From assembly GCA_025356095.1 (NCBI GenBank), contig JANXUR010000069.1, positions 1 to 47,978 of the forward strand: a DNA stretch of 47,978 bases, written 5' to 3'. The notes under the pieces are model-generated. The model was given only the letters and a program-made list of their open reading frames with translations. It ran no database searches and had not been told where the DNA came from. Every line of letters begins with the position of its first letter. Positions within the stretch are counted from its first letter, which is position 1. Position numbers and translations under genes: made by a program. This stretch comes from Acidobacteriaceae bacterium (lineage in GTDB: Bacteria; Acidobacteriota; Terriglobia; Terriglobales; Acidobacteriaceae). This document shows, one piece after another, positions 6,838-38,013 of the stretch.

Positions 6838-7809
6838 ATGGCGTTGCAACTGGTTACCGGAATCGCAGGATTCATCGGCTCGGCGCTGGCACGAGCGCTT
6901 CTGGCCGAGGGCCACCAAGTGCGTGGCATAGACAATCTTGCCACCGGGAGTATGAGTAATCTCTCGGAAATCATTGACCAGATTGACTTTAGGCAAGCCG
7001 ACCTGCTCGACCCGGCTGCCATGGCTTCGGCCTGCGTTGGTGTGGATTGCGTCTTCCACGAGGCTGCCCTGCCCTCGGTGCCGCGCTCGGTGATTGACCC
7101 CGTCGCCAGCAATCAGGCCAATGTGGATGGTACGCTTAACTTACTGATAGCCGCGCGCGACGCGAAGGTGCGTCGGGTGGTCTATGCTGCGTCGTCCTCG
7201 GCCTACGGCGACACCCCTACCCTGCCCAAGCACGAGGGCATGACGCCCAATCCGATCTCGCCTTACGCCGTGGCCAAGCTGACTGGGGAGCTTTACATGC
7301 GGTCGTTTTATCGGGTTTATGGACTGGAAACCGTCTGCCTGCGCTACTTCAACGTCTTCGGTCCGCGGCAGGCTCCGAATTCGCCGTATTCAGGAGTCCT
7401 CGCCAAGTTCATCACCAATATGTTGAAGGGTGAGACCCCAACCATCTACGGCGATGGGGAGCAAAGCCGCGACTTTACTTACATTGACAATGTGGTGCGG
7501 GGCAACCTGTTGGCCAGCGGACCGCTTGCAGCAGGTGCTCCGGCGGAAAAGGTGGCGGGCGAGGTCTTCAACTGCGCCTGCGGCGAGCGCATCACACTGA
7601 ACCAAACCGCGGAGATGCTGCGCGGCATCACCGGCTACACCGGCCCGGTGGAATACGCCCAGGACCGCAGCGGCGACATCAAACACTCTTTGGCCGACAT
7701 CACCCGCGCCGAATCCGCCTTCGGCTACCGCCCGGTGGTGAACTTTGAGGAAGGCCTGCGGCGCACGGTGGAGTGGTACCGGGAACAGATTGCAGCCGGT
7801 AGGGCGTAG
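6838..7809 (+). CDS. UDP-glucose/UDP-GlcNAc 4-epimerase-like SDR enzyme
   Basis: 323 residues from ATG 6838, where the Rossmann strand begins immediately (VTGIAGFIGS). An upstream GTG at 6763 would add 25 residues without family support. The 6838 start lacks an obvious ribosome-binding site. Motifs: AASSSAYGD around residues 117-125, catalytic Tyr143/Lys147 in SPYAVAK, LRYFNVFGPRQ, YGDGEQSRDFTYIDN. The HEAALPSVPRS and NVFGPRQ.P pattern resembles the WbpP/TviC group of UDP-GlcNAc C4-epimerases more than classical GalE, so UDP-GalNAc supply is plausible; UDP-galactose cannot be excluded. It is transcribed alone, divergent from ugd, with a terminator-like hairpin at 7940-7966. Confidence 0.85.
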   Translation: MALQLVTGIAGFIGSALARALLAEGHQVRGIDNLATGSMSNLSEIIDQIDFRQADLLDPAAMASACVGVDCVFHEAALPSVPRSVIDPVASNQANVDGTLNLLIAARDAKVRRVVYAASSSAYGDTPTLPKHEGMTPNPISPYAVAKLTGELYMRSFYRVYGLETVCLRYFNVFGPRQAPNSPYSGVLAKFITNMLKGETPTIYGDGEQSRDFTYIDNVVRGNLLASGPLAAGAPAEKVAGEVFNCACGERITLNQTAEMLRGITGYTGPVEYAQDRSGDIKHSLADITRAESAFGYRPVVNFEEGLRRTVEWYREQIAAGRA

Positions 7810-7939
7810 GGCGTAGAACTTGGGGCAAGAAGCCCGGCAAGGCTAAATCGGGGAAAGTCCTAAGAAGAAGAGCAAGTCCTAAGGGATTCTTGGGAGCAGC
7901 GTGACTCGACTCAAGGAATTAGGGGGATGCGCTTACGGT

Positions 7940-7966
7940 GCCGCAACAGCGGGTTTGCGGCTGTTT
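7940..7966 (+). terminator. Probable terminator after the 4-epimerase gene
   Basis: GCCGCAA (7940-7946) and TTGCGGC (7955-7961) form a 7-bp stem with an 8-base loop, followed by the short T-containing tract TGTTTA. It lies 130 bases after the stop codon. The U-tract is weak. Confidence 0.4.
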
Positions 7967-7968
7967 AC

Positions 7969-8008
7969 TTGGACGACTGGTACTTGGACGACTCGTAGTT
8001 GGACGACT
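7969..8008. repeat. 15-bp-period tandem repeat with core TTGGACGACT (3 copies)
   Basis: The decamer TTGGACGACT occurs at 7969-7978, 7984-7993 and 7999-8008, exactly 15 bases apart, with variable 5-base spacers. The last copy touches the stop codon (8007-8009) of the small minus-strand gene. It sits between two convergent genes. Confidence 0.85.
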
Positions 8009-8381
8009 AGCGAACTAGGGCTCGTTCGCTGCTGAGCGCAGCCATGCGCTTCTCTTCGCTAGCCTTGCTAGCCTGGCTAGGTTGGCCAGCTTGCGGGCCA
8101 TCGTCGGCCACTTCGCGGCTATCGGCTTGCGCGATGCCAATCAGCTCGCCCAGTTCGTAGCTGTAAGGACCGTATCCGGTGAAGGTGTGCTCATCAAACA
8201 AGCGTTTGATGCCGCAGGCGGTACAGACCTGATAAGAAAGCTTGCCAGCGCGCACCGGCCAGCTCATGTTCTTGTGCCAGCATCCGCGGACGGCCACGGC
8301 AGCCACACCGGTCACCCCGGCGGCTAGAATGCCCAAAGGCCACAGCCACACTGACTTTCTCGACTTTTTCACGTCTGCCAT
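8007..8381 (-). CDS. Small single-span membrane protein, unknown function
   Basis: 124 residues from ATG 8381; GTG 8387 would add two. A charged N-terminus (ADVKKSRKS) precedes one transmembrane helix (about residues 11-31, WLWPLGILAAGVTGVAAVAV). A short domain with CTACG and the aromatic run FTGYGPYSYELGELIG follows. The Cys-x-x-Cys motif with only one extra Cys suggests a partial metal knuckle or a disulfide, depending on topology. The tail is Ala/Ser/Gln-rich (PSQASKASEEK), encoded by imperfect GCTAGCC-type repeats, and probably disordered. No family was recognised. It is convergent with the 4-epimerase gene. Confidence 0.6.
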   Translation of the reverse strand: MADVKKSRKSVWLWPLGILAAGVTGVAAVAVRGCWHKNMSWPVRAGKLSYQVCTACGIKRLFDEHTFTGYGPYSYELGELIGIAQADSREVADDGPQAGQPSQASKASEEKRMAALSSERALVR

Positions 8382-8569
8382 CGTCACTGCTCGCGGATGC
8401 TAGCGGATGCTCACGCGCAACCCCATTCCTTCGAGCATAGGATGAAACCCGGCTTAAGGCAAATATCTTCTGTTAATTCTTGAAGTCAGAACCAATCTGG
8501 GTAATCTCAGGCGGCTTTGGCCGTAGCGGCGTTTTGGGGGAGAACCCGGCTGGCCTCCCCAAAAGTGCC

Positions 8570-8598
8570 TGTAAACCATTGCGTCTAAGGTATATACT
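8570..8598 (+). promoter_or_regulatory. Candidate promoter of the GAF-amidase gene
   Basis: A good -10-like TATACT (8593-8598) within TATATACT lies 17 bases after a weak -35 (TGTAAA, 8570-8575), about 38 bases before the ATG at 8636. The -10 box is the main support. Confidence 0.35.
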
Positions 8599-8635
8599 CG
8601 CCCCGTGGACGCGATAGACTGGTAAGAGTCTCACG

Positions 8636-11047
8636 ATGCTGTCACTGACCCAAACCGAGCAGGAAGCGCGCACGCTGGCCCCCGAAGCACGGGTGCATTG
8701 GATTGCCGAGCGCATTCTGGCGCTTACCGGAGCCTCTGGCTCGGCCGTTGCCCTGCGCGATGCCGCAGGCGTTTTCGTGTGCCGCGCCCGTGCCGGGGAA
8801 GCCGCGCCGCGCATCGGTGCGCCGCTCAACATCGAAGCGGGCATCTCCGGAGCCTGCATTCGCCATGCGGAAGTGATCCGCTGCGAAGACGCTTGGAAGG
8901 ACGACCGCGTGGATGAGCAGGTCGCCCGGAAAATCCAAGTGCGCTCAGTGCTAGCGGTGCCGATTTTTGAAGCGGGAGGACATAGCAGCGCCGGGCACAG
9001 TGGACATTGCCAGCCCGTTGGTTTAGTACAAGCACTTTCCGCGCGACCTTATGCATTTTCTGTTTCCGATCTGGAACGTCTGCGCAAGCTGGCACTGCTG
9101 CTGACAGAAGCGGAACCACCAGCGGGTATCGAGAACAGCGGGCCGACTGCAACTGCAGTCGCACAGTTTGAAGAGCAGGTTGCCGAAGCGCTGCCGGTTG
9201 CACTAACGGGCGACGTTGTGGAAGTAGAAACTACGCCTGTACGTCTGGCGACGGTCACTCCGATTTTTGCGACTTCGCAGGCAAGCGAACCGGAGTTACA
9301 GCATGAGAATGAACCAAGCGCGGCTCATGCTGTGACAACCGAACCGGCCGAGCCCCATCAAGCCACAACCCACGTCGCGCAGGTGATTGAGTTCCCTGCC
9401 CCCGTGGTAGTTGAACGCGCATTGGTTGAACCCGTGGTGGTTGAACCCGTGGTAGTTGAACCCGTGGTGGTTGAACCCGCCGCGGCATCGGCTCAGTTTG
9501 GTGAAGAGGAACTGCCGACGACGATTGCGCTCGTTCCTGACGCTCGTCAGGGGTTGGCTCCGCTTGCGCTGGAGCCTACTCTTCCGGGAGATAGCCCGCT
9601 ACTTTTTCAAGCGTACGGCGAACCCACTCGCCCGCGTCGCGGAAAATGGCTCTTGCTTGTCGCCGCCTTGGTATTGCTGGCCGGAGCAGCTTATTGGTGG
9701 ACTCAACACAGTTCGCAGGCTTCGCAGCTTTTCCAGAGCCTCGTGACGCGTGGGCCTTTGACCAGCGGCGTTGCCGTGCAAGCTACACCTGCGCTTGCCG
9801 CTCCATCGGCCCGGGTTGCGTCGTCACCGCTTCCGTCGTCACCGCTAGGCACTACCCCGACAATAGAAGCAACCAACGGCGCCGTAGCTACCCAAACACC
9901 CGCAAGCACCGCCATCCCTGCATCCTTACCTGCGACGGTGCCTGCAGCACCTGCCGGGCCAGCGTTGCCCTTGCATGTGCCGAGCGCCGGGCCACGCAGC
10001 ATGAGTGGCATTCACGTTTCCGTCGAGGCTGGGCGCACCGTCGTCCTGCTCGATTTGAACGATCAGGTGCAATACGAAGAACATCGCCTCACCAATCCCG
10101 ACCGCATCTACTTTGACTTGCAGGAAACGACGGTGGGCGCCCGGGTCTCGGCGAAAATGGCGGGCGACGGCTTGCGCATTCTGCGAGTACGTACCGCCAG
10201 TTCGCAGCCCGGCGTAACACGCGTGGTGCTCGACACCAAAGGCATTGTGGACTATCGGGTGCGCATGAACACAGAGCCTTACGGCTTGCGGATAGAAGTT
10301 GGCACTGCACCTCGGGATCTGCCGAATGCCGTCGCCGCCGCTCCCCATCCGGGTTCCACTGCGGTGGCGGCGGTACCTCACCCGCTGCGCAAAATACCCG
10401 GCATCGCCGCAGCCAAGCTCAAGATTGTGCTTGACCCCGGGCACGGTGGCTGGGACATGGGCACCATTGGCAATCGCGGACTGATGGAAAAAGATTTGGC
10501 GCTCGATGTCGCCCAACGGTTGAGCCTACTATTGCTGAAAAGCTCTGACTACGACGTGACGCTTACCCGGCTGGACGATACTTACATTCCGTTGGAGCAG
10601 CGCGCTTCCGCCGCCAACACCGCGGGTGCGGACTTATTTATTTCGATTCACGGGAACTACAGTTCGCGCAGCCATTCGCGCGGGGTGGAGACTTACTACC
10701 CTATCGCCAGCAGCACCGATGCCGCCACGAGTGTGCGCACGGAGGATTCGCGCAAGCTGGCGGAAATGCTGCAAACCTTTCTGCATCATCAAGAGGCGGC
10801 CAGCAATCCCGGCCTGCCTGACCGCGGAGTGAAGGGCGCGAACTTCGCAGTGCTGCGTTCCACGGCGATGCCCGCAGCGCTGGCTGAAGTTTCTTTTGTC
10901 AGCAGCCCCAATGACGAGATACAACTTATCCAATCGAGCTACCGCCAGCAACTCGCCGAGGCTCTGTATAAGGGCATCGCCAGTTACGTGAGCCAGCGCA
11001 ACCAGAAGCTCACCGCGAGCGCGAGTTCGCGCGCATCGGGACAGTAA
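8636..11047 (+). CDS. GAF domain - transmembrane - AMIN - N-acetylmuramoyl-L-alanine amidase fusion
   Basis: 803 residues. Residues about 10-165 form a GAF domain with no signal peptide before it (WIAERILALTGASGSAVAL, SVLAVPIFE, GLVQALSARPYAFS). A long Pro/Ala/Val/Glu-rich linker follows, including VVVEP repeats (about 257-281), then one transmembrane helix (about 337-355). A second low-complexity linker leads to an AMIN domain (about 458-550) and an Amidase_3 domain (596 to about 790). The amidase zinc site is intact: His603 (LDPGHGG), Glu618 (LMEKD), His672 (ISIHGN), and catalytic Glu751 (ALAEVSF). The amidase cleaves the MurNAc-L-Ala bond of peptidoglycan in the periplasm. Predicted topology puts GAF in the cytoplasm and AMIN-amidase in the periplasm, so a cytoplasmic signal could control wall hydrolysis. 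Usual AmiC-type amidases have a cleavable signal peptide and no GAF. Confidence 0.9.
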   Translation: MLSLTQTEQEARTLAPEARVHWIAERILALTGASGSAVALRDAAGVFVCRARAGEAAPRIGAPLNIEAGISGACIRHAEVIRCEDAWKDDRVDEQVARKIQVRSVLAVPIFEAGGHSSAGHSGHCQPVGLVQALSARPYAFSVSDLERLRKLALLLTEAEPPAGIENSGPTATAVAQFEEQVAEALPVALTGDVVEVETTPVRLATVTPIFATSQASEPELQHENEPSAAHAVTTEPAEPHQATTHVAQVIEFPAPVVVERALVEPVVVEPVVVEPVVVEPAAASAQFGEEELPTTIALVPDARQGLAPLALEPTLPGDSPLLFQAYGEPTRPRRGKWLLLVAALVLLAGAAYWWTQHSSQASQLFQSLVTRGPLTSGVAVQATPALAAPSARVASSPLPSSPLGTTPTIEATNGAVATQTPASTAIPASLPATVPAAPAGPALPLHVPSAGPRSMSGIHVSVEAGRTVVLLDLNDQVQYEEHRLTNPDRIYFDLQETTVGARVSAKMAGDGLRILRVRTASSQPGVTRVVLDTKGIVDYRVRMNTEPYGLRIEVGTAPRDLPNAVAAAPHPGSTAVAAVPHPLRKIPGIAAAKLKIVLDPGHGGWDMGTIGNRGLMEKDLALDVAQRLSLLLLKSSDYDVTLTRLDDTYIPLEQRASAANTAGADLFISIHGNYSSRSHSRGVETYYPIASSTDAATSVRTEDSRKLAEMLQTFLHHQEAASNPGLPDRGVKGANFAVLRSTAMPAALAEVSFVSSPNDEIQLIQSSYRQQLAEALYKGIASYVSQRNQKLTASASSRASGQ
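9401..9475 (+). repeat. 15-bp in-frame tandem repeat encoding VVVEP
   Basis: Five 15-base units of the form CCCGTGGTRGTTGAA, the second degenerate (CGCGCATTGGTTGAA), lie in the linker of the GAF-amidase fusion. Each unit is five codons, so gain or loss of copies would keep the frame and change linker length. Confidence 0.9.
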
Positions 11048-17493: not shown

Positions 17494-18561
17494 TCAGACG
17501 ACAGAAGACTGTAGGACCGCAGCGATTCGCTCGGCCGCCCGACCATCCCACAAAGGTATGGCTTGCGCCGCCCGCCATCGGCCCGCCAGCACTTCTGCCA
17601 CAGACTCTCGCAGTGCTTGCAAGTTTCGACCCACCAGCCGGTTCGTTCCCAAGTTCACGGTAATTGGCCGCTCGGTGTTTTCGCGCACTGTAAGGCATGG
17701 CACGCCCAAGTAAGTCGTTTCTTCCTGCACGCCACCGGAATCACTCATCACCAGCACGGCATCGCGTTGCAGCGCCAGAAATTGCAGATAGGGTTGCGGC
17801 TCCAGCAGAATCAAGCGCGCGCTGGTGGCGGCGTCTATTCCCATCGCCTGCAACCGTTGCAACGTGCGCGGATGCGCCGGGAACACCACCGGCAGGTGTT
17901 CTGCCACGTCCCCCAGCGCACCAAGCAGGCTCTTGAGCCAGGCCGGGTCATCCACATTGGAAGGCCGATGCAAAGTGACCAGCGCATAACGCGCTGGTAA
18001 ACCTTGGGGCGGCACAGCCAAAGGTAGCAGCCGCACCAGCGTATCTATCATCACGTTGCCCACACAAAATATCTTTTCCGGGGCGATGCCTTCACGGCGT
18101 AGATTTTCGTCCCCGTCGGGTGATGGCGTAAAGAGCCAGTCGGAAAGCTGGTCGGTTACCAAGCGATTCACTTCTTCGGGCATCGAGCGGTCGCGGGAGC
18201 GCAAACCAGCTTCCACGTGTGCCACCTTGATACCTAATTTGGAACAGACTAGGGCCGCCGCCACCGTAGAATTTACGTCCCCATATACAACCACGACATC
18301 CGGCTGGCGTTCGAGCACAATTTTCTCAAAACGTGCCAGTATTTCGGCAGTCTGACTGGCATGGCTGCCAGAACCGACCCCTAGATTCACATCCGGCTGC
18401 GGCATCCCCAATTGCTTGAAGAATACCTCGGACATACTGGCATCATAGTGCTGCCCAGTGTGTACCAAGGTCTGCCGAAGGCCGCACGCCGCCAGCGCAC
18501 GCAATACCGGTGCCGCCTTCATAAAGTTGGGTCGTGCGCCGACTACGTGGAGTATGTGCAT
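17494..18561 (-). CDS. wecB: UDP-N-acetylglucosamine 2-epimerase (non-hydrolysing)
   Basis: 355 residues. Interconverts UDP-GlcNAc and UDP-ManNAc in the cytoplasm. Recognisable elements: GARPNFMKAAP at the N-terminus, HTGQHYD, Asp95 in VVYGDVNST, Glu117 in HVEAGLRS, Glu129/130 in MPEEVNR, and SDSGGVQEE near residue 280. The aspartate and first glutamate coincide in number with the catalytic residues known from E. coli WecB. It follows wecA after 97 bases on the same strand and is the last gene of the long polysaccharide transcript. UDP-ManNAc would be a donor, or the precursor of ManNAcA; no WecC-type dehydrogenase is present in the window. Confidence 0.93.
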   Translation of the reverse strand: MHILHVVGARPNFMKAAPVLRALAACGLRQTLVHTGQHYDASMSEVFFKQLGMPQPDVNLGVGSGSHASQTAEILARFEKIVLERQPDVVVVYGDVNSTVAAALVCSKLGIKVAHVEAGLRSRDRSMPEEVNRLVTDQLSDWLFTPSPDGDENLRREGIAPEKIFCVGNVMIDTLVRLLPLAVPPQGLPARYALVTLHRPSNVDDPAWLKSLLGALGDVAEHLPVVFPAHPRTLQRLQAMGIDAATSARLILLEPQPYLQFLALQRDAVLVMSDSGGVQEETTYLGVPCLTVRENTERPITVNLGTNRLVGRNLQALRESVAEVLAGRWRAAQAIPLWDGRAAERIAAVLQSSVV

Positions 18562-20611: not shown

Positions 20612-21595
20612 TTGATTCGTTTCTATTCACTTTTTTTGACCACGCTGCTGGCGCTGAGCGGGCTTTTAGCGGCGCAAGTGCCCACACCCGCGCCTGTGCC
20701 GCAAGCTGGAGTCCCTGCCGGATCTGTACCTGCTGCTGCCGCCCCAATCACATCCAAACCCGTGGCTGGCACCACAACCTTGGGTATTGGCGATCTGGTG
20801 GAGTTTTCTGTATTTGGCGTTCCCGACCTTACCTCCAAATCTCGTGTGAATGACGATGGCGAGCTCACCATACCGCTGGCAGGCTTGGTAAAGGTTGCGG
20901 GCATGACGCTGCGGGAAGCCGAAAAGGCGGTGGCTACCACTATGATCGCAGGTGGCTTCCTGAAGGCACCGCAGATTTCACTCTTTGTAGTCGAGTCGGT
21001 TTCCCAGAATGTAAACGTGCTGGGCGAAGTAAACCGGCCGGGTACCTATCCCATGCTGGGCGCACGCACTCTTTACGACGCGGTCTCGGCTGCCGGTGGC
21101 CTGACGCAGAAGGCTGGCGAGACGATCACGGTGCGCCATCACGAGCACCCAGATCAGCCCATCGCCATTCCACTCCACTCAGGATCGGGCGGAGAGTTGG
21201 CGAGTTCCCTTTCCCAGCCGGTCAGTTCCGGTGACACCATCACCGTTTCGCAGGCGGGCATTGTGTACGTTGTGGGTGCGGTTGCGCACCCCAGCGGATT
21301 TGTACTGGAAGGCGGCGGAAGCATTTCTGTACTGAAAGCGCTGGCACTGGCTGGCGGTACCACGCCGACCGCATCGCTGACGCACTCCCGCATCATCCGG
21401 CGCAACCCGGACGGCAAGACGCAAGACCTGCCCATCCCACTCAATAAGATACTCGAGGCGAAGGCGGAAGACCCGGTACTGCAACCAAATGATGTTTTCT
21501 TTATTCCGGACAGCGCCACCAAAGCCGCCGCCAAACATGCAACAGACGTAGCCATTCAAACCGCAGCAACGGTTGGTCTTATCTTTCTTCGTTAG
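20612..21595 (+). CDS. wza: Polysaccharide export protein (Wza-like, Poly_export and SLBB domains)
   Basis: 327 residues from TTG 20612, which has GGAG seven bases upstream and opens directly into a signal peptide (IRFYSLFLTTLLALSGLLAAQ). No lipobox cysteine is present, so unlike E. coli Wza it is not an obvious lipoprotein. After a Pro-rich spacer comes the Poly_export domain (GIGDLVEFSVFGVPDL, DDGELTIPLAGLVKVAG), then two SLBB domains (VNVLGEVNRPGTYPML and VYVVGAVAHPSGFVLEGG). The C-terminus ends in a hydrophobic amphipathic stretch (AIQTAATVGLIFLR), which could be the outer-membrane helix. It forms the export channel for polymer made by the minus-strand locus. Its last 17 bases overlap the convergent GT gene. 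Confidence 0.88.
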   Translation: MIRFYSLFLTTLLALSGLLAAQVPTPAPVPQAGVPAGSVPAAAAPITSKPVAGTTTLGIGDLVEFSVFGVPDLTSKSRVNDDGELTIPLAGLVKVAGMTLREAEKAVATTMIAGGFLKAPQISLFVVESVSQNVNVLGEVNRPGTYPMLGARTLYDAVSAAGGLTQKAGETITVRHHEHPDQPIAIPLHSGSGGELASSLSQPVSSGDTITVSQAGIVYVVGAVAHPSGFVLEGGGSISVLKALALAGGTTPTASLTHSRIIRRNPDGKTQDLPIPLNKILEAKAEDPVLQPNDVFFIPDSATKAAAKHATDVAIQTAATVGLIFLR

Positions 21596-22946
21596 TCGCT
21601 TCGTTAGTCGCTTCGTTAGTCGCTTCGTTAGTGGCTTCGTTAGCGGCTTCGTTAGTGGCTTCGTTAGCGGCTGCTTTCGCCGTCTGCTTTTTCATGTTGG
21701 CGAGAGCTTGCAGATATTCCAAGCTCTTGGCGTGGCGGGAAAAGTTCTGCTCGATATAGCGGCGGCCCATGGTGCCCATCTTGCGCCGCGACTCCGGGTC
21801 GGCCTTCAACTTTAGAATGGCGGCCACCAGTTCATCGCATTGCTCCGGTTCCACGTAGACGCCACTCTGGCTCTCTTCCACAATCCGTCGAGCTTCGCCA
21901 TCCACGCCCACAATCACCGGCCTGCCGCACGCCATAAACTCCAGCATCTTGGTGGGAATGACGGTCCGAAACAGATCGGCTTTGCGCAGCAACACCAGCG
22001 CCGCATCCGAGGCGCGAATATACTCAGGAATCCGCTCGCGGGGTTGCTGGCCCACCAGGCGAATATTGGTGAGCCCGCGCTCGGCAATCAGCCGCTCGAT
22101 GCGCTTTTTGTCGGCACCTTCCCCGACCAGCAGGAATAGCACCTCGGGGTGCGTTGCCCGTATCTGCGTGGCCGCCTCCACCAGCGTACCCAGTCCGTGG
22201 GCCATGCCCATCGTGCCCAGATAACAGACGATGAAAGGATCGGTGGATGCGGCATCCTTCAGCAATGCAAAGCGCACAGCATCGCCGGAAATGGCGGGAG
22301 AAAACATTTCCGTCTCCACGCCATTTTCTACCACTGCGATCTTTTCCGCGGGAACCTGCCAGTGCTCGATCAAGTGGGTCTTGAACGCGGGTGTGACCAC
22401 GGCGACCAGATCGGCCCGGCGATACAAGAAGCCGGCGATTTTTTCCAGCAGCCGATAGAAGACTGAGTCCTGCTGCCCCATGCCCACGGCCGTGAGCGAC
22501 TCCGGCCACAGGTCGCGGACTTCGAAGACGAACGGCACTCGCTTCCACGCGCTCTTCACCACGCTGATCCACCAGCCCGATGGACCAACCAGCAGCTGTG
22601 GCGAAGTCGCGATGACAACATCCGGCCTACCCAGAAACATTCCTGTGAACGCAGCCGACACGCAGAACGATCCGTAGTTCAACATGCGTTCGTACGCTTT
22701 GCGGTTGGGCAACGGCCACAGCCAAGTGCGAATCACAGTCGCACCGCGATACTCCTCACGCACCACGCCCCGCCAGATCTTGCGGCAATACTCAGGTGCA
22801 AGCTCACCTGTGGGATGGTTGGGAAAGCCAGTCAGGATGGTCACCTGATGCCCTGCTTCTACCCAGTGGCGCGCAAGTTCGGACGCGCGTGCGGCAGGCG
22901 CACCCATCTCTGGCGGAAAGTATTGCGATACGTAGAGAATCCTCAC
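21579..22946 (-). CDS. GT4 glycosyltransferase (WcaI/WbuB-like)
   Basis: 455 residues from GTG 22946, where the family N-terminus RILYVSQYFPPEMGAP begins; a TTG at 22991 would add 15 residues. GT-B fold: the N-terminal half carries FPNHP and FEVRDLWPESL, typical of the WcaI/WbuB subgroup; the C-terminal half carries YLGTMGMAHGL and PTKMLEFMACGRPVIV. It would transfer a nucleotide-activated sugar to the lipid-linked repeat at the cytoplasmic face. The last 25 or so residues are a (ATNE/AANE)n repeat encoded by a 12-bp tandem repeat, and the end overlaps the convergent wza stop. It is 61 bases downstream of the C5-epimerase gene. Donor and acceptor are unknown. Confidence 0.87.
   Translation of the reverse strand: MRILYVSQYFPPEMGAPAARASELARHWVEAGHQVTILTGFPNHPTGELAPEYCRKIWRGVVREEYRGATVIRTWLWPLPNRKAYERMLNYGSFCVSAAFTGMFLGRPDVVIATSPQLLVGPSGWWISVVKSAWKRVPFVFEVRDLWPESLTAVGMGQQDSVFYRLLEKIAGFLYRRADLVAVVTPAFKTHLIEHWQVPAEKIAVVENGVETEMFSPAISGDAVRFALLKDAASTDPFIVCYLGTMGMAHGLGTLVEAATQIRATHPEVLFLLVGEGADKKRIERLIAERGLTNIRLVGQQPRERIPEYIRASDAALVLLRKADLFRTVIPTKMLEFMACGRPVIVGVDGEARRIVEESQSGVYVEPEQCDELVAAILKLKADPESRRKMGTMGRRYIEQNFSRHAKSLEYLQALANMKKQTAKAAANEATNEAANEATNEATNEATNEATNEER
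21589..21672. repeat. 12-bp tandem repeat (7 copies), C-terminal ATNE repeats
   Basis: Seven contiguous units of TCGTTAGTCGCT or close variants (TCGTTAGTGGCT, TCGTTAGCGGCT). On the minus strand they encode Ala-Thr-Asn-Glu or Ala-Ala-Asn-Glu at the tail of the GT4 protein. Because the unit is a multiple of three, copy-number change keeps the frame. The first unit overlaps the stop codon region of the convergent wza. Confidence 0.95.
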
Positions 22947-23007
22947 GGCTGGGTGATCATCGTCATTTTGAGCAAATTCTGCAAATTGCAATTTTGCCGG
23001 GGAAAAA

Positions 23008-24009
23008 CTAGTAGTAGCACAATTTGAAAATCACTTTGCCCACCAGCGCCCGCCACCGCTTCCAGCGGCTTCGAGTATAACCCTGCCAGCGATCCGCAAC
23101 ATCGGCGAAGTGTTGATGCCCCGTCAGCCGCTGCAACACTCGCAACTGTACGATGTGCAGCCGATGATAGAACGAACTGGCAAGCATGGGCAGTGCGGTT
23201 CCAGATTGCTCATAGAGCGACCACCAGCCCGTATCAAAACGATCTACCGCCGTCAGCAGCGTGCTGACCGCATGTCCCCACATTTCGCTGGCGTTGCCAT
23301 CGCCCGTCGCCAGCGCATAGTCGTGCACGCCCCAACTTGCCCAGATAAATCCATTCAGAATGTGAGTGGGCGGCGCAACAATATACTCCTCAAACCACAG
23401 GTGACGGTCTGCATCCACAAACACCACACCGCCATCTTCCACATGAACCAGAAACGCTTGCCATGCGCGTCGAGCTGCCGTCAAGTAGCGTGTGTCAGCT
23501 GTATGCAGATGCGCCCTCACCAGCAGTGAGATGCCCTGCCCCTGCGCCAACCCTGAGTACCAAGGCGCAACCAGCGTGTCGCGATAATCCCAATCAAAGT
23601 GATGCATCCACATACTGCGGCCAGCGGGATTTTCTTCCAGATGATGCATCATCCAGTCGGCGGCCAGCAGAAATTTGCGTTCGCGCTCGCTTGCGCCGTC
23701 CGGATCTTGCGCAGCTCTGGCCCGCAGCAGCAGGTTGTAGTTACCCAGCCCATATTGCGCGATCGCAATCGGGTTGTACTGCCGACCGATGGCACCCCGA
23801 TAGTCAAGCATGGGAATGCCTGCTTCGTCCAAGGTGCCGGCGTAGTCAGCCTTCTGGTCGAAGTCCATGTAGTAGGGGCCAAGCGCTACTGGATCGAACT
23901 CCCCATTGATGCGTGGCTCGCCATGCCAAAAGCTTAGCTGGCTCGGATTGGCCGTGAGATAGGCCGAAAAGATGCGCTGCCAGTAGCGCAGACGCTTGGC
24001 CAGACTCAT
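23008..24009 (-). CDS. D-glucuronyl C5-epimerase C-terminal domain protein
   Basis: 333 residues from ATG 24009, which overlaps the upstream stop as ATGA. The sequence matches the alpha/alpha-barrel C-terminal domain of heparan/heparosan D-glucuronyl C5-epimerases: YNPIAIAQYGLGNY (78-91), WYSGLAQGQGISLL (150-163), EEY (207-209), and THILNGFIWASWG (215-227). In animals and some bacteria this domain inverts C5 of glucuronic acid within a polymer to iduronic acid. There is no signal peptide, so it would act in the cytoplasm, perhaps on the lipid-linked repeat, unless exported another way. Ugd in the window can supply the uronic acid. An epimerase-fold protein with a different role (for example a uronate lyase-like helper) cannot be excluded. 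Confidence 0.82.
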   Translation of the reverse strand: MSLAKRLRYWQRIFSAYLTANPSQLSFWHGEPRINGEFDPVALGPYYMDFDQKADYAGTLDEAGIPMLDYRGAIGRQYNPIAIAQYGLGNYNLLLRARAAQDPDGASERERKFLLAADWMMHHLEENPAGRSMWMHHFDWDYRDTLVAPWYSGLAQGQGISLLVRAHLHTADTRYLTAARRAWQAFLVHVEDGGVVFVDADRHLWFEEYIVAPPTHILNGFIWASWGVHDYALATGDGNASEMWGHAVSTLLTAVDRFDTGWWSLYEQSGTALPMLASSFYHRLHIVQLRVLQRLTGHQHFADVADRWQGYTRSRWKRWRALVGKVIFKLCYY

Positions 24010-24645
24010 GCCGGGCCTGCTTGCCGGGCGTCGCGCTGCTGCCGCCGCCAAAAGTGGGTAACTGCATCTTCCCGCTTCACCGCCGCAGTCGTAAAGGCAA
24101 GCCACGGCGAATCGTTTTCACCATCGGGCAGAGAAACATTACCAAACTGAAAGTACTTCATCGGCCAGGCATCTTTAGTCCAAGTACCAACAGCATTGAA
24201 ATTGGCGGGTGCATCTGCGTCGTCATTCGCGCAAGTCGCGCCATACAAGCACACCACCGACTGCGAATTCACCAGACTCGGCTCGGCCATCGTAGAAAAC
24301 ATCACAGCATCGCCCACCCTGCATCCGCACAATGACGACGACGCGACCGGCGCAAGCTGGTGTAAGCTGCCCGTGCGATTGAGCCGGTAGATGTAGTTCT
24401 GCTCCCATGGCGGTTCGGTGGCAAAGTACAAGCCGTCGCGCATGGGCACCGCCGCCACTGCTCGGGCCTGCTGATTGCCCTGGAGCACCGGAACTATCTC
24501 CTGCAAATCTTCACTGGCGCTGAGAATTTGACACTCCTCTCCATCGTCACCAGTCAGAATCTACAGCCGAGAGGCGAACGAGTCCCAGAGAATGTTGTGG
24601 ACATGGCGGACGGCACGCACTGGAAAAGTATGCGCCACACTCCGC
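24006..24645 (-). pseudogene. 3' remnant of a propeller-type protein gene, with nonsense codon
   Basis: Reading down from about 24645, one frame gives TFPVRAVRHVHNILWDSF, then ASRL, a TAG stop (24563-24561), then ILTGDDGEECQILSASED and a further 170 or so codons to the stop at 24006. The flanking text fits a continuous protein (RHVHN, then xLTGDDGE, then GLYFATEPPWEQNYIYRLNRTG), so the TAG looks like a mutated TGG tryptophan codon. The start of the gene is missing: upstream, the DNA is carbamoyltransferase. A piece from an internal TTG (24506) could still be made and would couple to the C5-epimerase by ATGA. Repeat spacing suggests a beta-propeller of BNR/sialidase-like type. Function is not assigned. 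Confidence 0.7.
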
Positions 24646-24882
24646 GTACTGCACTTTCTTCAATAGATTTGCGTCCGTGTCAGAGCCGACCGAAATGTGC
24701 TCCACGTCGGCAATCTTCGCGCCGACCGCATTGAGACAGGCCTGAATCGCGAGCGCCGGAAATCCGCCAAAATGCTTTTGCCGATTCAACCGTTCTTCGG
24801 CCACTGCAAACTTTACTTCGCCATCCAGCAAAATCGCCGCCGAGGCGTCTGCGTGGAACATATTCAAACCTAAAATCAGCAT
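24643..24882 (-). pseudogene. 5' remnant of a carbamoyltransferase gene (NodU/CmcH family)
   Basis: From ATG 24882 the frame gives LILGLNMFHADASAAILLDG, VAEERLNRQKHFGGFP, then ADVEHISVGSDTDANLLKKV. This is the N-terminus of NodU/CmcH-type O-carbamoyltransferases (about 550-600 residues), which carbamoylate sugar hydroxyls from carbamoyl phosphate. Family similarity stops near residue 80 (KKVQYA, about 24643). The frame then runs through unrelated sequence to a TGA at 24549-24547. The remaining 85% of the gene, including the YrdC-like ATP/carbamoyl-phosphate half, is absent. It is therefore a truncated gene joined to the propeller remnant. It lies 95 bases after the two-domain oxidoreductase gene. 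Confidence 0.78.
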
Positions 24883-24977: not shown

Positions 24978-27206
24978 TTACTGGCCGAGCCGAATTCGAT
25001 CCTTAAATGCTGGCACGTCAATCTTCACCCGCTCACCGGTGCGCAACGCCGTCAGTGCGTGTAGCGTCAGCAGTGTCGAACCGATGATGTGGTCAAGCGG
25101 CACCGGCTCCAACTTGCCTTCTGCAAATGACCGCACAAATGCTTCCCACTCGCCGCGATGACCTTTGTCCTGGCCCAGTCGCGCGTGCTCGGTGCGGAGC
25201 TTGCCGCCTTCAGAAAGCTCCAGCGTCCGAAAGTCGTCAATCACCGCCGTCTTGCCAGCGCCGAACACCTCAATACGTTCTTTGCCAAACGCGCGGTCGC
25301 CATTCGCCATGTAGCTCACTACGCCCCGCGAGCCATTGGCAAAGCCAACACTAATCACGACATTGTCATCGCAAAAGCTGCCGTTATCGCCGAGCGTGCG
25401 CGCTTCCACTTCCACCGGTGCGCCGCATACGAAGGTCAAGTAGTCCAGAAAGTGGCATACCTCACCTAACATTCGCCCACCTTCGGATGCATCCTGAGTC
25501 CAATGGTTCGGGGGCAGAAAGCCCGCGTTCACTCGATAGTGCGCGTACATCGGTGCGCGATGCACGTCGCGCCGCATAAACTCGCGCAGCTTCACACTCA
25601 TCGGCGCGTAACGGCGGTTAAAGCCCACCATCAGGCGCAAGGGGGCCGGGTTCGCTAGCAGGTTGGTTACAATGTCGCGCAACTCGTCTTCGGAAAGGCA
25701 AAGCGGTTTTTCGCAAAATACATTCTTGCCCGCCTTAAGCGCGGCAATCACCTGACCTGCATGCAGGCTGTGGCGGGTAGCAATCACCGCCGTATTCACC
25801 GACGGATCAGCTAACAAATCTTCTAGACTCGTCGTGCAGAAACGGAAGCCAAACTTTTCCGCAGCGTGTTTGGCCTTCGCGCCGGATGCGCTACACACTC
25901 CCGCATAGTCCACACCAGATATTTTCTGCATCGCGGGCAGCAGAGTGGTTAGCGCAAATCCGCCTGCTCCAACCAAGCCGACTGAAACTTTCGCACCCGC
26001 CACCGCAGTGCGCACTGGTAACTCCATGCGTGTGCTCGGCGCAAAGTCTGCGCTGCTGTAGGTCAGCAATACACCCAGAAACGAGCCGCCGCTCTTCCCA
26101 GTGATCAGTTCATAAGCGTCCGTGGCCTGCTCCAATGGGAAGCGATGCGAGATCAGGGATGTCACATCTACCTTGCCCGATGCCAGCAAATCGAGGAACG
26201 CATCCATGTTGCGAGTCTCGGTCCAGCGTACAAAGCCCGCAGGATAGTCGCGGCCCTTCTCCTCAAAGTCGGCATCATATCTGCCCGGGCCATACGACCG
26301 CGACACCCGAAAGCTGAGCTCTTTCTTGAAGTACGAATCACGCCGCAGGTTCAAGCCAACCGCTCCGACAGACACCACCGCACCACGGTCCCGCGCCACC
26401 TGTGCGGCTAACTCAACCGGATCGCTCGAAGGTGTTTCTGCAGTGATTAGCACAGCGTCGGCGCCGATGCCGCGCGAAAATTCCCGGCACAATTGAGCCA
26501 AGTCCGCTGACGAAGTGCAAGCGGCATCCGCGCCCATGCGCCGCGCCAGCTTCGCACGCTCTTCACGCGGGTCTATGCCCACCACCACGCAACCATTGGC
26601 GCGAAGAATTTGCACCGTCAACTGCCCGAGTAATCCCAAACCAATCACGGCAACTACATCGCCCAGCTTCACCTCTGCCGTGCGAACCCCGTGCAAGGCC
26701 ACCGCACCCAGCGTAGTGAAGGCCGCTGCCTCAAACGGAACCGGCACTGCATTTCCAGAAGCATTTTCGGACGTCGCTACCGGCACCTTTGCCACCAGCA
26801 GTCGCGGCACCGATACCACCTCCGCGTGGATCGCATAGTTCGCACCGGCGCAAGCCACGCGGTCACCGGGCTGAATTCCGGTCACCTGCTCACCCGTCGC
26901 GATCACCGTGCCCGCACAACTGTAGCCGAGCGCAAGTGGTTGGTCGAGCCGACCGCGCACCGAATGGATCGTCGGCAGCAACCCATCGCGACGAATCTTT
27001 TCCACCACCTGCCGTACCAAGTCGGGCCGGGCTTTGGCTTTACCTGCCAGACTCTTCTCGGCAAACTCGGTCACCGCGCGCTCGGTTCCCGCAGAAACCA
27101 CGCTCGCCACTACCCGCACCAGCACGGAGTTTGGCCCCATGTGCGGCACTGGCACATCGGTCACCGTAATCGCACCACTGCGCGCATCCTGCGAAAGCTG
27201 CTTCAT
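24978..27206 (-). CDS. Two-domain oxidoreductase: zinc-type alcohol dehydrogenase fused to Gfo/Idh/MocA
   Basis: 742 residues from ATG 27206, with GGAGGTG six bases upstream and ATGA overlap with asnB; an in-frame extension to 27362 is unsupported. Residues 1-380 form an MDR-type dehydrogenase (LGYSCAGTV, GDRVACAGANYA, Rossmann VIGLGLLGQ at 187-195). Residues about 407-742 form a Gfo/Idh/MocA oxidoreductase (VGLVGAGGFA at 409-418, CEKP at 498-501, GGRMLGEVCHFLDYL). The catalytic Lys of Gfo/Idh enzymes is that of EKP. This fusion recurs in bacterial polysaccharide clusters next to asnB and glycosyltransferases. Its reaction is not established; a nucleotide-sugar or lipid-linked-sugar redox step is the likely role. 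Confidence 0.88.
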   Translation of the reverse strand: MKQLSQDARSGAITVTDVPVPHMGPNSVLVRVVASVVSAGTERAVTEFAEKSLAGKAKARPDLVRQVVEKIRRDGLLPTIHSVRGRLDQPLALGYSCAGTVIATGEQVTGIQPGDRVACAGANYAIHAEVVSVPRLLVAKVPVATSENASGNAVPVPFEAAAFTTLGAVALHGVRTAEVKLGDVVAVIGLGLLGQLTVQILRANGCVVVGIDPREERAKLARRMGADAACTSSADLAQLCREFSRGIGADAVLITAETPSSDPVELAAQVARDRGAVVSVGAVGLNLRRDSYFKKELSFRVSRSYGPGRYDADFEEKGRDYPAGFVRWTETRNMDAFLDLLASGKVDVTSLISHRFPLEQATDAYELITGKSGGSFLGVLLTYSSADFAPSTRMELPVRTAVAGAKVSVGLVGAGGFALTTLLPAMQKISGVDYAGVCSASGAKAKHAAEKFGFRFCTTSLEDLLADPSVNTAVIATRHSLHAGQVIAALKAGKNVFCEKPLCLSEDELRDIVTNLLANPAPLRLMVGFNRRYAPMSVKLREFMRRDVHRAPMYAHYRVNAGFLPPNHWTQDASEGGRMLGEVCHFLDYLTFVCGAPVEVEARTLGDNGSFCDDNVVISVGFANGSRGVVSYMANGDRAFGKERIEVFGAGKTAVIDDFRTLELSEGGKLRTEHARLGQDKGHRGEWEAFVRSFAEGKLEPVPLDHIIGSTLLTLHALTALRTGERVKIDVPAFKDRIRLGQ

Positions 27207-29260
27207 GCTGGCACCTCCGCAGGCACGATCGAGGAAGCACACGTACGCGTAGCGGCCGCAATGGCAGCGTTGTTTCTTTCGCGCCAGCCACCGGCACCAT
27301 TGTCCAGGAACATCTGCATCCACAACTCCAGCGTCAAAAATTGCCAAATCTGCATAGACCAATCTTGCCGTCCACTGCGATGCTCTTCCACATATCGCCG
27401 CACTACGTCGGGCCGCAACAGCCCCCGTGCGCGAATCCGCGCTTCCGACAACAGATCATCCACCATGGGGCGCATCTCATGCGCCAACCAATAATCTACC
27501 GGAGCGAAGAAGCCCGCCTTGGGCTGACGCAGCACTTCCTCAGGTAACGCATCCTTCATCGCGCGGCGCAAAATGTGCTTGGTCTCCGGACTCAGCAAGC
27601 CTTTTAACTTGAGTGACGGCGGCACTTCGCTGGCCACAAACTGCGCCAGTTCGTGATCCAAGAACGGCACCCGCACTTCCACAGACGACGCCATACTCAT
27701 CTTGTCGTTATACGTCAGGTTCAGGCTGGTCATGAAGATTTTCGTATCCAGATACAGCATCTGATTCAGAAAGTCTGCGCCGTTCACGCGCGAAAAACGC
27801 TCGCGATGCTGAATCGCCGGGTCGAAACCCTCTACCTGCGCCATCATCGCTGGCTCGTACAGTTCGCGCTTTTGCGCCGCGTCTAGATAAGTGGCGTTCT
27901 GGATGAACTGCTCTTGTGGAGGCAACGATCCGCTGCGCGCCATCTTCTTTGCTAACCGCACCGGGCCTTTGAGCGCGGTGCCGCGCATGCCCGGTAGCGC
28001 CAGTATGGCAGGCTCCAGTACACGGCGCGCAAACCCCGGTATCTGCTGATACACCCCGGCCCAGCGCTGGGCTACATGCTTGCGATAGCCCGCGAAGAGC
28101 TCGTCGCCACCGACACCACTCAGCAAAACCGTCGCATCTTTTGTGGCTTCTTTACAAACCAGATATGCGGTAATTGCCGCCGGATCGGCGACTGGCTCAT
28201 CCATGTGCCAAATCAGTTTCGGCAGCAACTCGGCCACATTAGGATCCACCTCGATCCGATGATGCCGGCACCCAAAGTGCGCCGCCACGCGGCCCGCCAC
28301 ATCCGGGTCGTCCAGCGTGCTTTCGCCCACGCGATACTTCGCCGGGAACGTGATCGTGTAAGTCCGTACCGGCTGCTCGGCTACTTCTGCCATCATCGCC
28401 ACAATGCTACTGGAGTCCAAACCCGCGCTCAGGAACGCGCCGAGCGGCACATCACTGATCATCTGCTCCCGCACGCTGTTGCGAAAACGCTCGCGCACCT
28501 CCGCCACTAAGTCGTCCTGGGTGCGCGATGAAGTATGGCACGAATAAGTATGGTGCGACGGCGGAAATTGCAGGTCCCAATACTGCTCGATCTTCAACTC
28601 GCCGCGGCAAAAGGTCGCGTAGTGCCCTGCGGGCAGCTTCCAAATGTCGCGAAACATAGTGAGCGGGTCCGGCACCCAGAGAAACGTCAAAAACTGCTGC
28701 AGCGCCTCCCTGTCCATCTGCGCCGTAACGCCCGGCACTTCCAGCAGCGACTTAACCTCTGACGCAAATGCCAGCCGCCCGCCCTGCTGTGTGTAATACA
28801 GTGGCTTGATGCCAAAGTGATCGCGCGCCAGCAGCAGCAGCGGCTCGCTTCCGTGGATTGCTTCGCGCAGATCGTAGATTGCCAGCGCAAACATTCCCCG
28901 CAAGCGCCGCAGAAAGCTCACACCCTCTTGCTCGTATAGATGCACCACCACTTCCGTATCCGTCTGCGAGTGAAAGCGATGCCCCTTGGCCGTCAACTCT
29001 TCGCGCAACTCAGCGAAGTTATAGATTTCCCCATTCAACGCAATCCAGACGGTGCCATCGCCGTTGCTCATCGGCATGTGGCCTGCGGCAGAAAGGTCTA
29101 GAATCGCCAACCTGCGGCTGCCCAGTCCGCAATAACCGCCACCGGGCAACAGTTTCTGCCAGACGCCCGAATCGTCAGGACCGCGATGCGCCTGTACCTG
29201 CGTCATCCGCATCAGCGTTTCCGCGTCGCCCCAATTGGCTAGGCCGCAAATACCGCACAT
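27203..29260 (-). CDS. asnB: Asparagine synthase (glutamine-hydrolysing)-like amidotransferase
   Basis: 685 residues. The N-terminal class II glutaminase domain begins with the catalytic Cys2 (MCGICGLANW) and includes HRGPDDSG and the FHSQTDTEVVVHLYE region. The synthetase domain has the ATP pyrophosphatase loop SAGLDSSSIVAMMAE, LSGVGGDELFAGY, and NDKMSMASSVEVRVPFLDHEL. The ATG has GGAGG seven bases upstream and directly follows the GT2 stop. In polysaccharide loci such AsnB homologues are often thought to amidate uronic acids or amino-sugar derivatives rather than make free asparagine. The uronate-related context here fits, but plain asparagine synthesis is possible. Confidence 0.92.
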   Translation of the reverse strand: MCGICGLANWGDAETLMRMTQVQAHRGPDDSGVWQKLLPGGGYCGLGSRRLAILDLSAAGHMPMSNGDGTVWIALNGEIYNFAELREELTAKGHRFHSQTDTEVVVHLYEQEGVSFLRRLRGMFALAIYDLREAIHGSEPLLLLARDHFGIKPLYYTQQGGRLAFASEVKSLLEVPGVTAQMDREALQQFLTFLWVPDPLTMFRDIWKLPAGHYATFCRGELKIEQYWDLQFPPSHHTYSCHTSSRTQDDLVAEVRERFRNSVREQMISDVPLGAFLSAGLDSSSIVAMMAEVAEQPVRTYTITFPAKYRVGESTLDDPDVAGRVAAHFGCRHHRIEVDPNVAELLPKLIWHMDEPVADPAAITAYLVCKEATKDATVLLSGVGGDELFAGYRKHVAQRWAGVYQQIPGFARRVLEPAILALPGMRGTALKGPVRLAKKMARSGSLPPQEQFIQNATYLDAAQKRELYEPAMMAQVEGFDPAIQHRERFSRVNGADFLNQMLYLDTKIFMTSLNLTYNDKMSMASSVEVRVPFLDHELAQFVASEVPPSLKLKGLLSPETKHILRRAMKDALPEEVLRQPKAGFFAPVDYWLAHEMRPMVDDLLSEARIRARGLLRPDVVRRYVEEHRSGRQDWSMQIWQFLTLELWMQMFLDNGAGGWRERNNAAIAAATRTCASSIVPAEVPA

Positions 29261-36507: not shown

Positions 36508-38013
36508 TTACCGGAAGGCGACAGCACCCTCCAGCCGCAGATCGCGTAAACGGGCGCGCAACCGGGCCACTGGGTCACGTTCCGCTTGCGACTTCTTGAC
36601 GTGATCCAGCACCGCTTGCATCAATCTGCGGCGCACCTCGGGCACCTCTCCCGGCGGTAAGGGTGCCGTTTCGCCCGGATCGGCGGCCAAGTCAAATAGC
36701 TGCTCGCTGCCTCCGCCCAAATTCCATGTCAGTTTGTAACGGCCATGATGGATGGCAAGCAGCCGGCTGCCGTTCCGACGGCAACTATAGAAGGGATTGG
36801 TGCTCCCGGCAACGCACTCGGTGACTGTGGGCGGCTCGGTTGCGTCTCCCACTTGCGCCGCCAGCAGTTCGTTCCACCGGCTGCTTCCGGCCATTCCTCC
36901 CGGTGCTACCCCTACGGCTTCCAGTAAGGTTGCAGGTAGGTCAGTTTGGCTGAATGGCACATCTGCGAACCTTCGCCCACCCGTGCCCGGCACCCTCACC
37001 AGTAACGGCACTCGAATCAGCGACTCCGGCAGCGCGTCCGGCCGGTGATAGCGGCGGCCTTGCTCCAGCAGTTCTTCGCCGTGGTCGGCGGTCACCGCAA
37101 CAGCCGTATCGTCGTCCAATCCGAATTGCTGCAACATATCCAATAGTCGCCCGATCTGCCGGTCCGCCCAATAGACGCCCGCGTCGTAGAGCGCGGTCAC
37201 ATCATCACGATAGGCGGCAAGCTGGCTCGCGCTCAAATCCCCACGATTCCACACCGAGTTCAGTTTCCTAGCCCGACGCACATCAATATCGGGCCGGCCG
37301 ATGGCCGCCAGTGCCTCCAGCGGCGGGTAGTACGGATGGTGAGGATCCATTAGGTGCAGCCACAGAAAAAATGGTGCCCCGCCGCGCCCCGCCAACCACG
37401 GCCCCACTCGATTCACCATCGCATCCGCCGAGGGATAGCGGCGCAGATCATCCACGGTGACATCTTGTTTCCCGGCCTGCCACTGGCCGTAGCGAAAATA
37501 GGCGTCGTTATAAACCCGGCCCAGACCAATCGTCTTTGCGACGCCGCGCAGCGCACCATTCAGCTTTCCTACCAGACTTCCTGAGCCGCTTTCGGTTTCC
37601 GGTGTCTCATCCTGTCCGCATTTCGCAGGGCTGCCCCCGAGAAAATCCTCGAATTCGTCGAATCCCTGCTCATAGCCGAAGCGCGGACTCAGGTAGGCAT
37701 TGCCAGCAACAAACGCGGCAGTGGCATAGCCCGCGTCGCGCAGACACCAAGCCAGCGTCGCCTCTCCGGGGGCCATCCCGAGCACGTCACGGCCCATGGC
37801 CAGCGGGTGGCGTCCGCCCAAAATGGCAGGAAATGAATAGTAAGTAGGCGCACCGGCAACAACCGCGCAGGGGAATACGCAACTCTCGGACGCAAAACGA
37901 CTCAGTACCGGCGTGAACACGCCAGCATCCGCCGCCTCGCCAGTCACGTCATGTGTCCTGTCGAGGCGGAGGCAATCCACGGTAATCAAAATCAGCGAAC
38001 GTTGAGGATGCAT
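36508..38013 (-). CDS. Alkaline-phosphatase-superfamily (sulfatase-fold) enzyme without formylglycine motif
   Basis: 501 residues. Fold signs: ILITVDCLRLDR with metal ligand Asp13, the nucleophile region APTYYSFPAILGGRHP (55-70), and VTADHGEELLEQG with metal ligands Asp310 and His311. Classical sulfatases have C/S-x-P-S-R at the nucleophile; counting back from the Gly-Arg pair, the position here is Thr57 (T-Y-Y-S-F), with no Pro or Arg. A Thr nucleophile is known in phosphoethanolamine and phosphoglycerol transferases of this superfamily. There is no signal peptide or transmembrane helix, so it should be cytoplasmic. A role in modifying the polymer, or hydrolysing a phospho-ester, is an inference from the neighbours. 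It starts four bases after the deacetylase-like gene. Confidence 0.8.
   Translation of the reverse strand: MHPQRSLILITVDCLRLDRTHDVTGEAADAGVFTPVLSRFASESCVFPCAVVAGAPTYYSFPAILGGRHPLAMGRDVLGMAPGEATLAWCLRDAGYATAAFVAGNAYLSPRFGYEQGFDEFEDFLGGSPAKCGQDETPETESGSGSLVGKLNGALRGVAKTIGLGRVYNDAYFRYGQWQAGKQDVTVDDLRRYPSADAMVNRVGPWLAGRGGAPFFLWLHLMDPHHPYYPPLEALAAIGRPDIDVRRARKLNSVWNRGDLSASQLAAYRDDVTALYDAGVYWADRQIGRLLDMLQQFGLDDDTAVAVTADHGEELLEQGRRYHRPDALPESLIRVPLLVRVPGTGGRRFADVPFSQTDLPATLLEAVGVAPGGMAGSSRWNELLAAQVGDATEPPTVTECVAGSTNPFYSCRRNGSRLLAIHHGRYKLTWNLGGGSEQLFDLAADPGETAPLPPGEVPEVRRRLMQAVLDHVKKSQAERDPVARLRARLRDLRLEGAVAFR

Follow-up and report, generated by a model that had tools for sequence, protein, structure and literature searches.

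An apparent deletion in an acidobacterial exopolysaccharide operon joins the remnants of a carbamoyltransferase gene and a beta-propeller gene

Results

Two gene remnants meet at one junction

The window, meaning the whole stretch of 47,978 nucleotides from an Acidobacteriaceae bacterium analyzed here, carries an exopolysaccharide operon on its minus strand. Between an intact dehydrogenase gene and an intact C5-epimerase gene lie pieces of two other genes, a carbamoyltransferase and a beta-propeller protein (Table 1).

Table 1. Features at and around the junction, in order of transcription
Feature	Position	Strand	Evidence
Asparagine-synthase/glutamine amidotransferase-like gene, intact	27203..29260	-	Pfam Asn_synthase E 1.4e-98; NCBIfam asn_synth_AEB above cut-off; same place in L038-L041
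Two-domain dehydrogenase (zinc ADH + GFO/IDH/MocA), intact	24978..27206	-	Pfam; upstream of carbamoyltransferase in L010, L012, L038-L041
5' remnant of O-carbamoyltransferase gene, codons 1-80	24643..24882	-	80% identity to L010 residues 1-80; Pfam Carbam_trans_N
Deletion junction (probable), carbamoyltransferase codon 80 to Trp codon of the propeller's Asp-box-like stretch; position uncertain by at least 1 bp	24640..24648	-	Junction bases aligned with both parent genes of relatives
3' remnant of beta-propeller gene, from residue 169	24006..24647	-	Match to intact L010 protein; fold model of intact relative
In-frame TAG in propeller remnant, Trp in relatives	24561..24563	-	W in all 31 distinct intact propellers aligned
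TGA closing carbamoyltransferase frame, 31 unrelated codons beyond the junction	24547..24549	-	Frame translation
ATGA overlap of propeller frame end and epimerase start	24006..24009	-	Also present in 8 distinct intact loci, every one from genus g28
D-glucuronyl C5-epimerase-like gene, intact	23008..24009	-	Pfam C5-epim_C E 9.6e-48; invariant-column test
Glycosyltransferase (group 4, WcaI-like), intact	21579..22991	-	Pfam; NCBIfam below cut-off; 3' of epimerase in L010, L012, L038-L042

The initial annotation, made from the sequence, described some 80 codons of a carbamoyltransferase followed directly by a different protein in the +1 frame, and comparison with an intact relative (locus L010) bears out both halves of that description, positions included. 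The first frame opens at ATG 24882, 95 bases downstream of the dehydrogenase stop, and matches residues 1-80 of the 586-residue L010 carbamoyltransferase without a gap (64 of 80 identical, 24882-24643, E 2e-36); past codon 80 it has no further match to that protein. Pfam recognizes the fragment as Carbam_trans_N (PF02543) at 27.9 bits against a cut-off of 24, over profile positions 2-65 of 346. With 80 of 586 residues left and everything from residue 81 onward gone, the remnant is most unlikely to be an enzyme. Starting at 24647, the +1 frame aligns with residues 169-361 of the 365-residue L010 propeller (103 identities over 200 alignment positions, E 3e-60), continues through a single in-frame TAG exactly where the annotation had expected a tryptophan, and stops at the TGA at 24008-24006, which overlaps the epimerase ATG. 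What remains of the propeller is its C-terminal half alone, short of a complete blade set, and a Pfam search of this remnant matched no model.

At the join itself the parent genes share one certain base, a G, and up to five bases, imperfectly matched, if the lost codons were those found in relatives. Within the window the 24-base sequence at the junction is unique, and inspection of the sequence found no N bases at the join.

The flanking genes are intact. The dehydrogenase begins at ATG 27206, the Pfam and locus comparisons having used a version from 27212, two codons longer. In the epimerase, two of 103 invariant columns are changed in the window, compared with as many as 5 of 108 in relatives. 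The annotation's statement that the epimerase coupled by ATGA stayed intact thus holds for the overlap, which is present, and for the gene as sequence, its intactness being that of the sequence alone. The end of the glycosyltransferase gene (21579-21670, minus strand) translates into a run of repeated T-N-E-A units. Elsewhere in the operon, a sulfatase-family gene (36508-38013, minus strand; Pfam E 1.7e-35) is possibly another polymer-decorating step.

Relatives keep both parent genes side by side

A search of public genomes with the epimerase yielded 28 loci, and a search of 60 related genomes with the propeller remnant added five more besides the window's own; four of these five were fetched as wider stretches (L038-L041), and L042 is the fifth. 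In L010, L012 and L038-L041 the gene order is dehydrogenase, carbamoyltransferase, propeller, epimerase, glycosyltransferase, and L042 has the same order from the carbamoyltransferase onward, with no dehydrogenase match within the stretch fetched. The asparagine-synthase-like gene comes first in L038-L041, as in the window, and L040 has 1.2 kb between epimerase and glycosyltransferase. Thus the parent genes of both fragments are found intact and adjacent in relatives, on the same strand and in the same order, between the dehydrogenase and the C5-epimerase. The carbamoyltransferase is 586 residues long in L010 and 579 in L012, and a near full-length match to it was obtained in 37 loci, 33 of them distinct. 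Among the 28 epimerase-search loci a propeller match is present in 14, with a carbamoyltransferase beside it only in L010 and L012.

These loci give the size of what is missing. Measured from codon 80 of the carbamoyltransferase to the propeller's corresponding Trp codon, where both genes are near complete, the stretch absent from the window spans 1,982-2,194 bp with a median of 2,008 (28 locus records, of which 23 are distinct and 5 repeat a locus already counted).

In other loci (L020, L024-L029 and L031) a dehydrogenase and an epimerase are present, and neither a carbamoyltransferase nor a propeller match lies between the two. These loci come from Chloroflexi, Gemmatimonadota, Flavobacteriales, Jorgensenbacteria, Omnitrophota, an unplaced bacterium and two further acidobacteria; L020 and L024 carry in that position a UDP-GlcNAc 2-epimerase-like gene, named by its likeness to window positions 17494-18561. 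Such loci in other bacteria suggest that the remaining genes of the operon can function in the absence of these two.

Among the sampled genomes only this one shows the junction

The window's genome is a draft of 3.53 Mb in 120 contigs, with completeness listed as 100. Searching it with full-length carbamoyltransferase and propeller queries at E<=10 returned only the window fragments, with no second copy and no transposed pieces. Taken with the intact genes that tblastn finds in related loci, this supports the annotation's proposal that a deletion broke both genes at one junction.

A survey of the family covered 398 genomes, the window's included, drawn evenly from a larger group. A carbamoyltransferase of the NodU/TobZ kind (E<=1e-20) was found in at least 124 of them, and the propeller (E<=1e-10) in 50, with 51 matches. 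The annotation had raised the prospect of the same junction being conserved in many relatives; no junction common to relatives appeared among all 51 propeller matches in the 398 genomes, and the only match starting at propeller residue 169 is the window's. Two other partial propellers are cut differently, one in G253 (from residue 73) and one being the second piece in G080 (residues 5-75).

Several apparent breaks in other genomes were considered as further losses. Those in the carbamoyltransferases of L107 and L108 were rejected, as runs of N at the breaks mark assembly gaps. A single stop attributed to the G115 carbamoyltransferase was likewise set aside, the match in L105 being free of stops, and that in G216 (L106) falls beyond the conserved end of the protein. 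In locus L104 of G082 (7799-8788), the carbamoyltransferase lies in pieces whose frames are shifted, covering residues 177-377 (interrupted by a stop), 435-508 and 529-574; there is no run of N, and an intact propeller adjoins the broken gene. G082 belongs to another genus, where this carbamoyltransferase was apparently lost a second time, independently. An in-frame TGA, flanked by matching sequence, lies close to the 3' end of the propeller gene in L022 (2944-3966; the same locus as L080, in G369) and reflects either early decay or a sequencing error.

Signs of decay and the ATGA overlap

Of 40 propeller columns invariant in the other sequences, five differ in the remnant (W to F, W to TAG, D to E, T to P and Y to F), compared with at most 4 of 44 when the propellers of other loci were left out one at a time as a control; the carbamoyltransferase remnant has none of 39 invariant columns changed. 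Among nearly invariant propeller columns the window again has the most changes, 16 of 86 against 14 of 90 in one relative. Given the divergence of the epimerase, the window has the lowest propeller identity among 28 loci, with a mean residual of -0.064, the next lowest being -0.033 and the pair scatter 0.034. The codon-position GC bias of the propeller remnant resembles that of its intact neighbors and the frame is open apart from the TAG, features that make recency and residual use of the remnant indistinguishable. Overall, the signs of decay are modest and would fit a recent loss. Because a TAG at an invariant tryptophan is accompanied by excess divergence of the propeller, the scar looks biological rather than like an assembly join. 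The epimerase tree is weakly resolved, with the window standing alone on a long branch (end branch 0.6; no starred set); an unplaced window tells nothing about the deletion event.

The ATGA overlap at the epimerase start recurs in intact loci (L061, L062, L063, L066, L067, L068, L070 and L073, with L106 being the L073 locus again), and so it may have arisen before the deletion. Other records measured have a propeller-epimerase gap of 4-292 bases, with one case of 1,810, the start being taken as the codon aligned with the window's epimerase ATG. The window's propeller frame runs about 13 codons beyond its last matching residue, making a later change at the propeller end possible. The deletion may thus have taken away the translated upstream partner of a coupled pair and lowered translation of the epimerase.

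Carbamoyltransferase and propeller occur together

Across the family, orthologues of the carbamoyltransferase were defined at >=70% identity, with three cut or gapped examples included (G109, G253 and G278). Among the matches listed, the propeller is present in 41 of 43 genomes with an orthologue, 8 of 49 propeller genomes have no carbamoyltransferase at that identity, and 346 of 397 genomes have neither gene. Fisher's test of the association gives p 3e-45 (397 genomes with the window's left out, a calculation that ignores kinship). Five of the eight orthologue-less genomes have a distant carbamoyltransferase at 39-49% identity (G239, G349, G361, G369 and G393); the remaining three are G082, with its broken gene, and G135 and G384, which have none among the matches listed. 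In the two genomes of genus g7 that were examined, G105 and G166, the dehydrogenase-carbamoyltransferase and propeller-epimerase parts lie on different contigs (L048, L051, L078 and L086), so the co-occurrence reflects more than linkage.

What the lost proteins resemble

The intact L010 carbamoyltransferase matches solved carbamoyltransferases over nearly its full length, the best being 7xb6 (E 8.8e-92), with TobZ (3ven, E 2.7e-80) and GdmN also matched. Against the NCBIfam NodU model it scores 169.9 bits, so far below the cut-off of 1000 that its substrate cannot be named.

The intact propeller matched no Pfam or NCBIfam model. A structure model of the L010 protein (13 sequences; mean pLDDT 79.7, pTM 0.83) was identified by Foldseek as a beta-propeller, giving substance to the word that the initial annotation had used. 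At E<=0.001 the model matched 1,366 PDB chains, with TM scores to the query of 0.34-0.58 in the best 50 of the 1,366; so many similar matches imply that the protein has no close relative. Weak sequence matches were to a cellulose-binding family II protein (E 0.057) and a xyloglucanase (E 0.062), and weaker ones to trans-sialidases (E 0.52-0.53) beside two unrelated proteins. The protein contains an S-x-D-x-G-x-T-W stretch, which we take to resemble an Asp-box motif, and the window's junction falls on the W of this stretch.

Discussion

A single deletion and its alternatives

A single deletion of about 2.0-2.2 kb in the exopolysaccharide operon very probably fused the 5' end of the carbamoyltransferase gene to the 3' end of the propeller gene. 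It would have taken the last ~500 codons of the former and the first ~169 of the latter, the cut falling in the Asp-box-like stretch. One certain shared base at the join, or at most an imperfect 5-bp match, fits illegitimate recombination, by which the loss would have happened in one event, probably a recent one when set against the divergence from known relatives. The two remnants would then be pseudogenes, and the polymer made here would be without the carbamoyl group that relatives add. The dehydrogenase upstream and the epimerase and glycosyltransferase downstream are intact and presumably still active.

An error of assembly or scaffolding could produce the same picture, with both genes whole in the organism and a piece of about 2 kb dropped at the join. 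The genome is, after all, a draft in many contigs, and drafts of relatives are gapped inside this very carbamoyltransferase gene, as the runs of N in L107 and L108 illustrate. Yet the join here contains no N, the missing 2 kb was found on no other contig at E<=10, and a stop at an invariant tryptophan together with other changes at invariant sites would not arise from joining intact pieces; we consider such an artefact very unlikely. Still harder to credit is the notion of two short genes of independent origin whose likeness to the ends of known genes is fortuitous. Nothing was found in its favor: the ends match, order and strand agree, and the neighbors are conserved on both sides, leaving this reading with next to no probability.

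More substance attaches to the idea that the propeller remnant is kept as a shorter working frame, restarting beyond the TAG at a codon such as GTG 24488 or ATG 24443 and running into the ATGA so as to couple epimerase translation. The overlap exists in intact relatives of one genus, the frame is unbroken after the TAG, and Shine-Dalgarno-like bases lie upstream of both candidate codons, with pairing energies of -7.4 kcal/mol for the GTG and -6.3 for the ATG, the epimerase ATG itself pairing only weakly with the ribosome at -4.3. These energies are not strong, being near the background range (median -3.1, 5th percentile -7.2 kcal/mol) when 17 in-frame restart codons were tried. Half a propeller would moreover be unlikely to fold, invariant residues are changed after the TAG, and no such form was found in the 397 other family genomes searched. 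On balance we regard a retained short frame as unlikely, and prefer a deletion that left two pseudogenes.

A possible functional pair

As an event, the deletion would be ordinary gene decay, seen in an unusually clear case; what deserves attention is that propeller and carbamoyltransferase appear to be paired. The two proteins might act as a functional pair when acidobacteria make exopolysaccharide, with the propeller, for example, handling or recognizing the carbamoylated sugar. This is a tentative suggestion that we ourselves consider doubtful. The near-complete co-occurrence and the genomes with the two genes on different contigs speak for it, among the matches listed, and against it stand the propeller genomes without an orthologue and the intact propeller beside a broken carbamoyltransferase in G082. 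Were the pair real, the window would amount to a natural double knock-out with the rest of the operon kept, and the role of the pair could be tested by comparing polymers. The locus looks like a natural case in which a step that decorates the polymer has been lost while those that modify its backbone are retained, and it brings to light a propeller family, outside the Pfam and NCBIfam models, that co-occurs with a carbamoyltransferase.

Relation to known systems

The titles and abstract openings of the best-matching publications listed contain no account of this operon, and the nearest comparisons are with families and with a general phenomenon. Like the NodU/CmcH/TobZ O-carbamoyltransferases, the window's 80-codon 5' remnant belongs to Carbam_trans_N; unlike them, the window has nothing from residue 81 onward. 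The intact relative shares with Asp-box and sialidase-like beta-propellers its modeled fold and the S-x-D-x-G-x-T-W stretch, whereas it differs in matching no Pfam or NCBIfam model and in having no catalytic assignment, and the window keeps only the C-terminal half. Deletion pseudogenes in polysaccharide loci are a general phenomenon, and the window resembles them in its gene pieces, apparently fused across a deletion between intact flanks; it differs from them only in the particular genes concerned.
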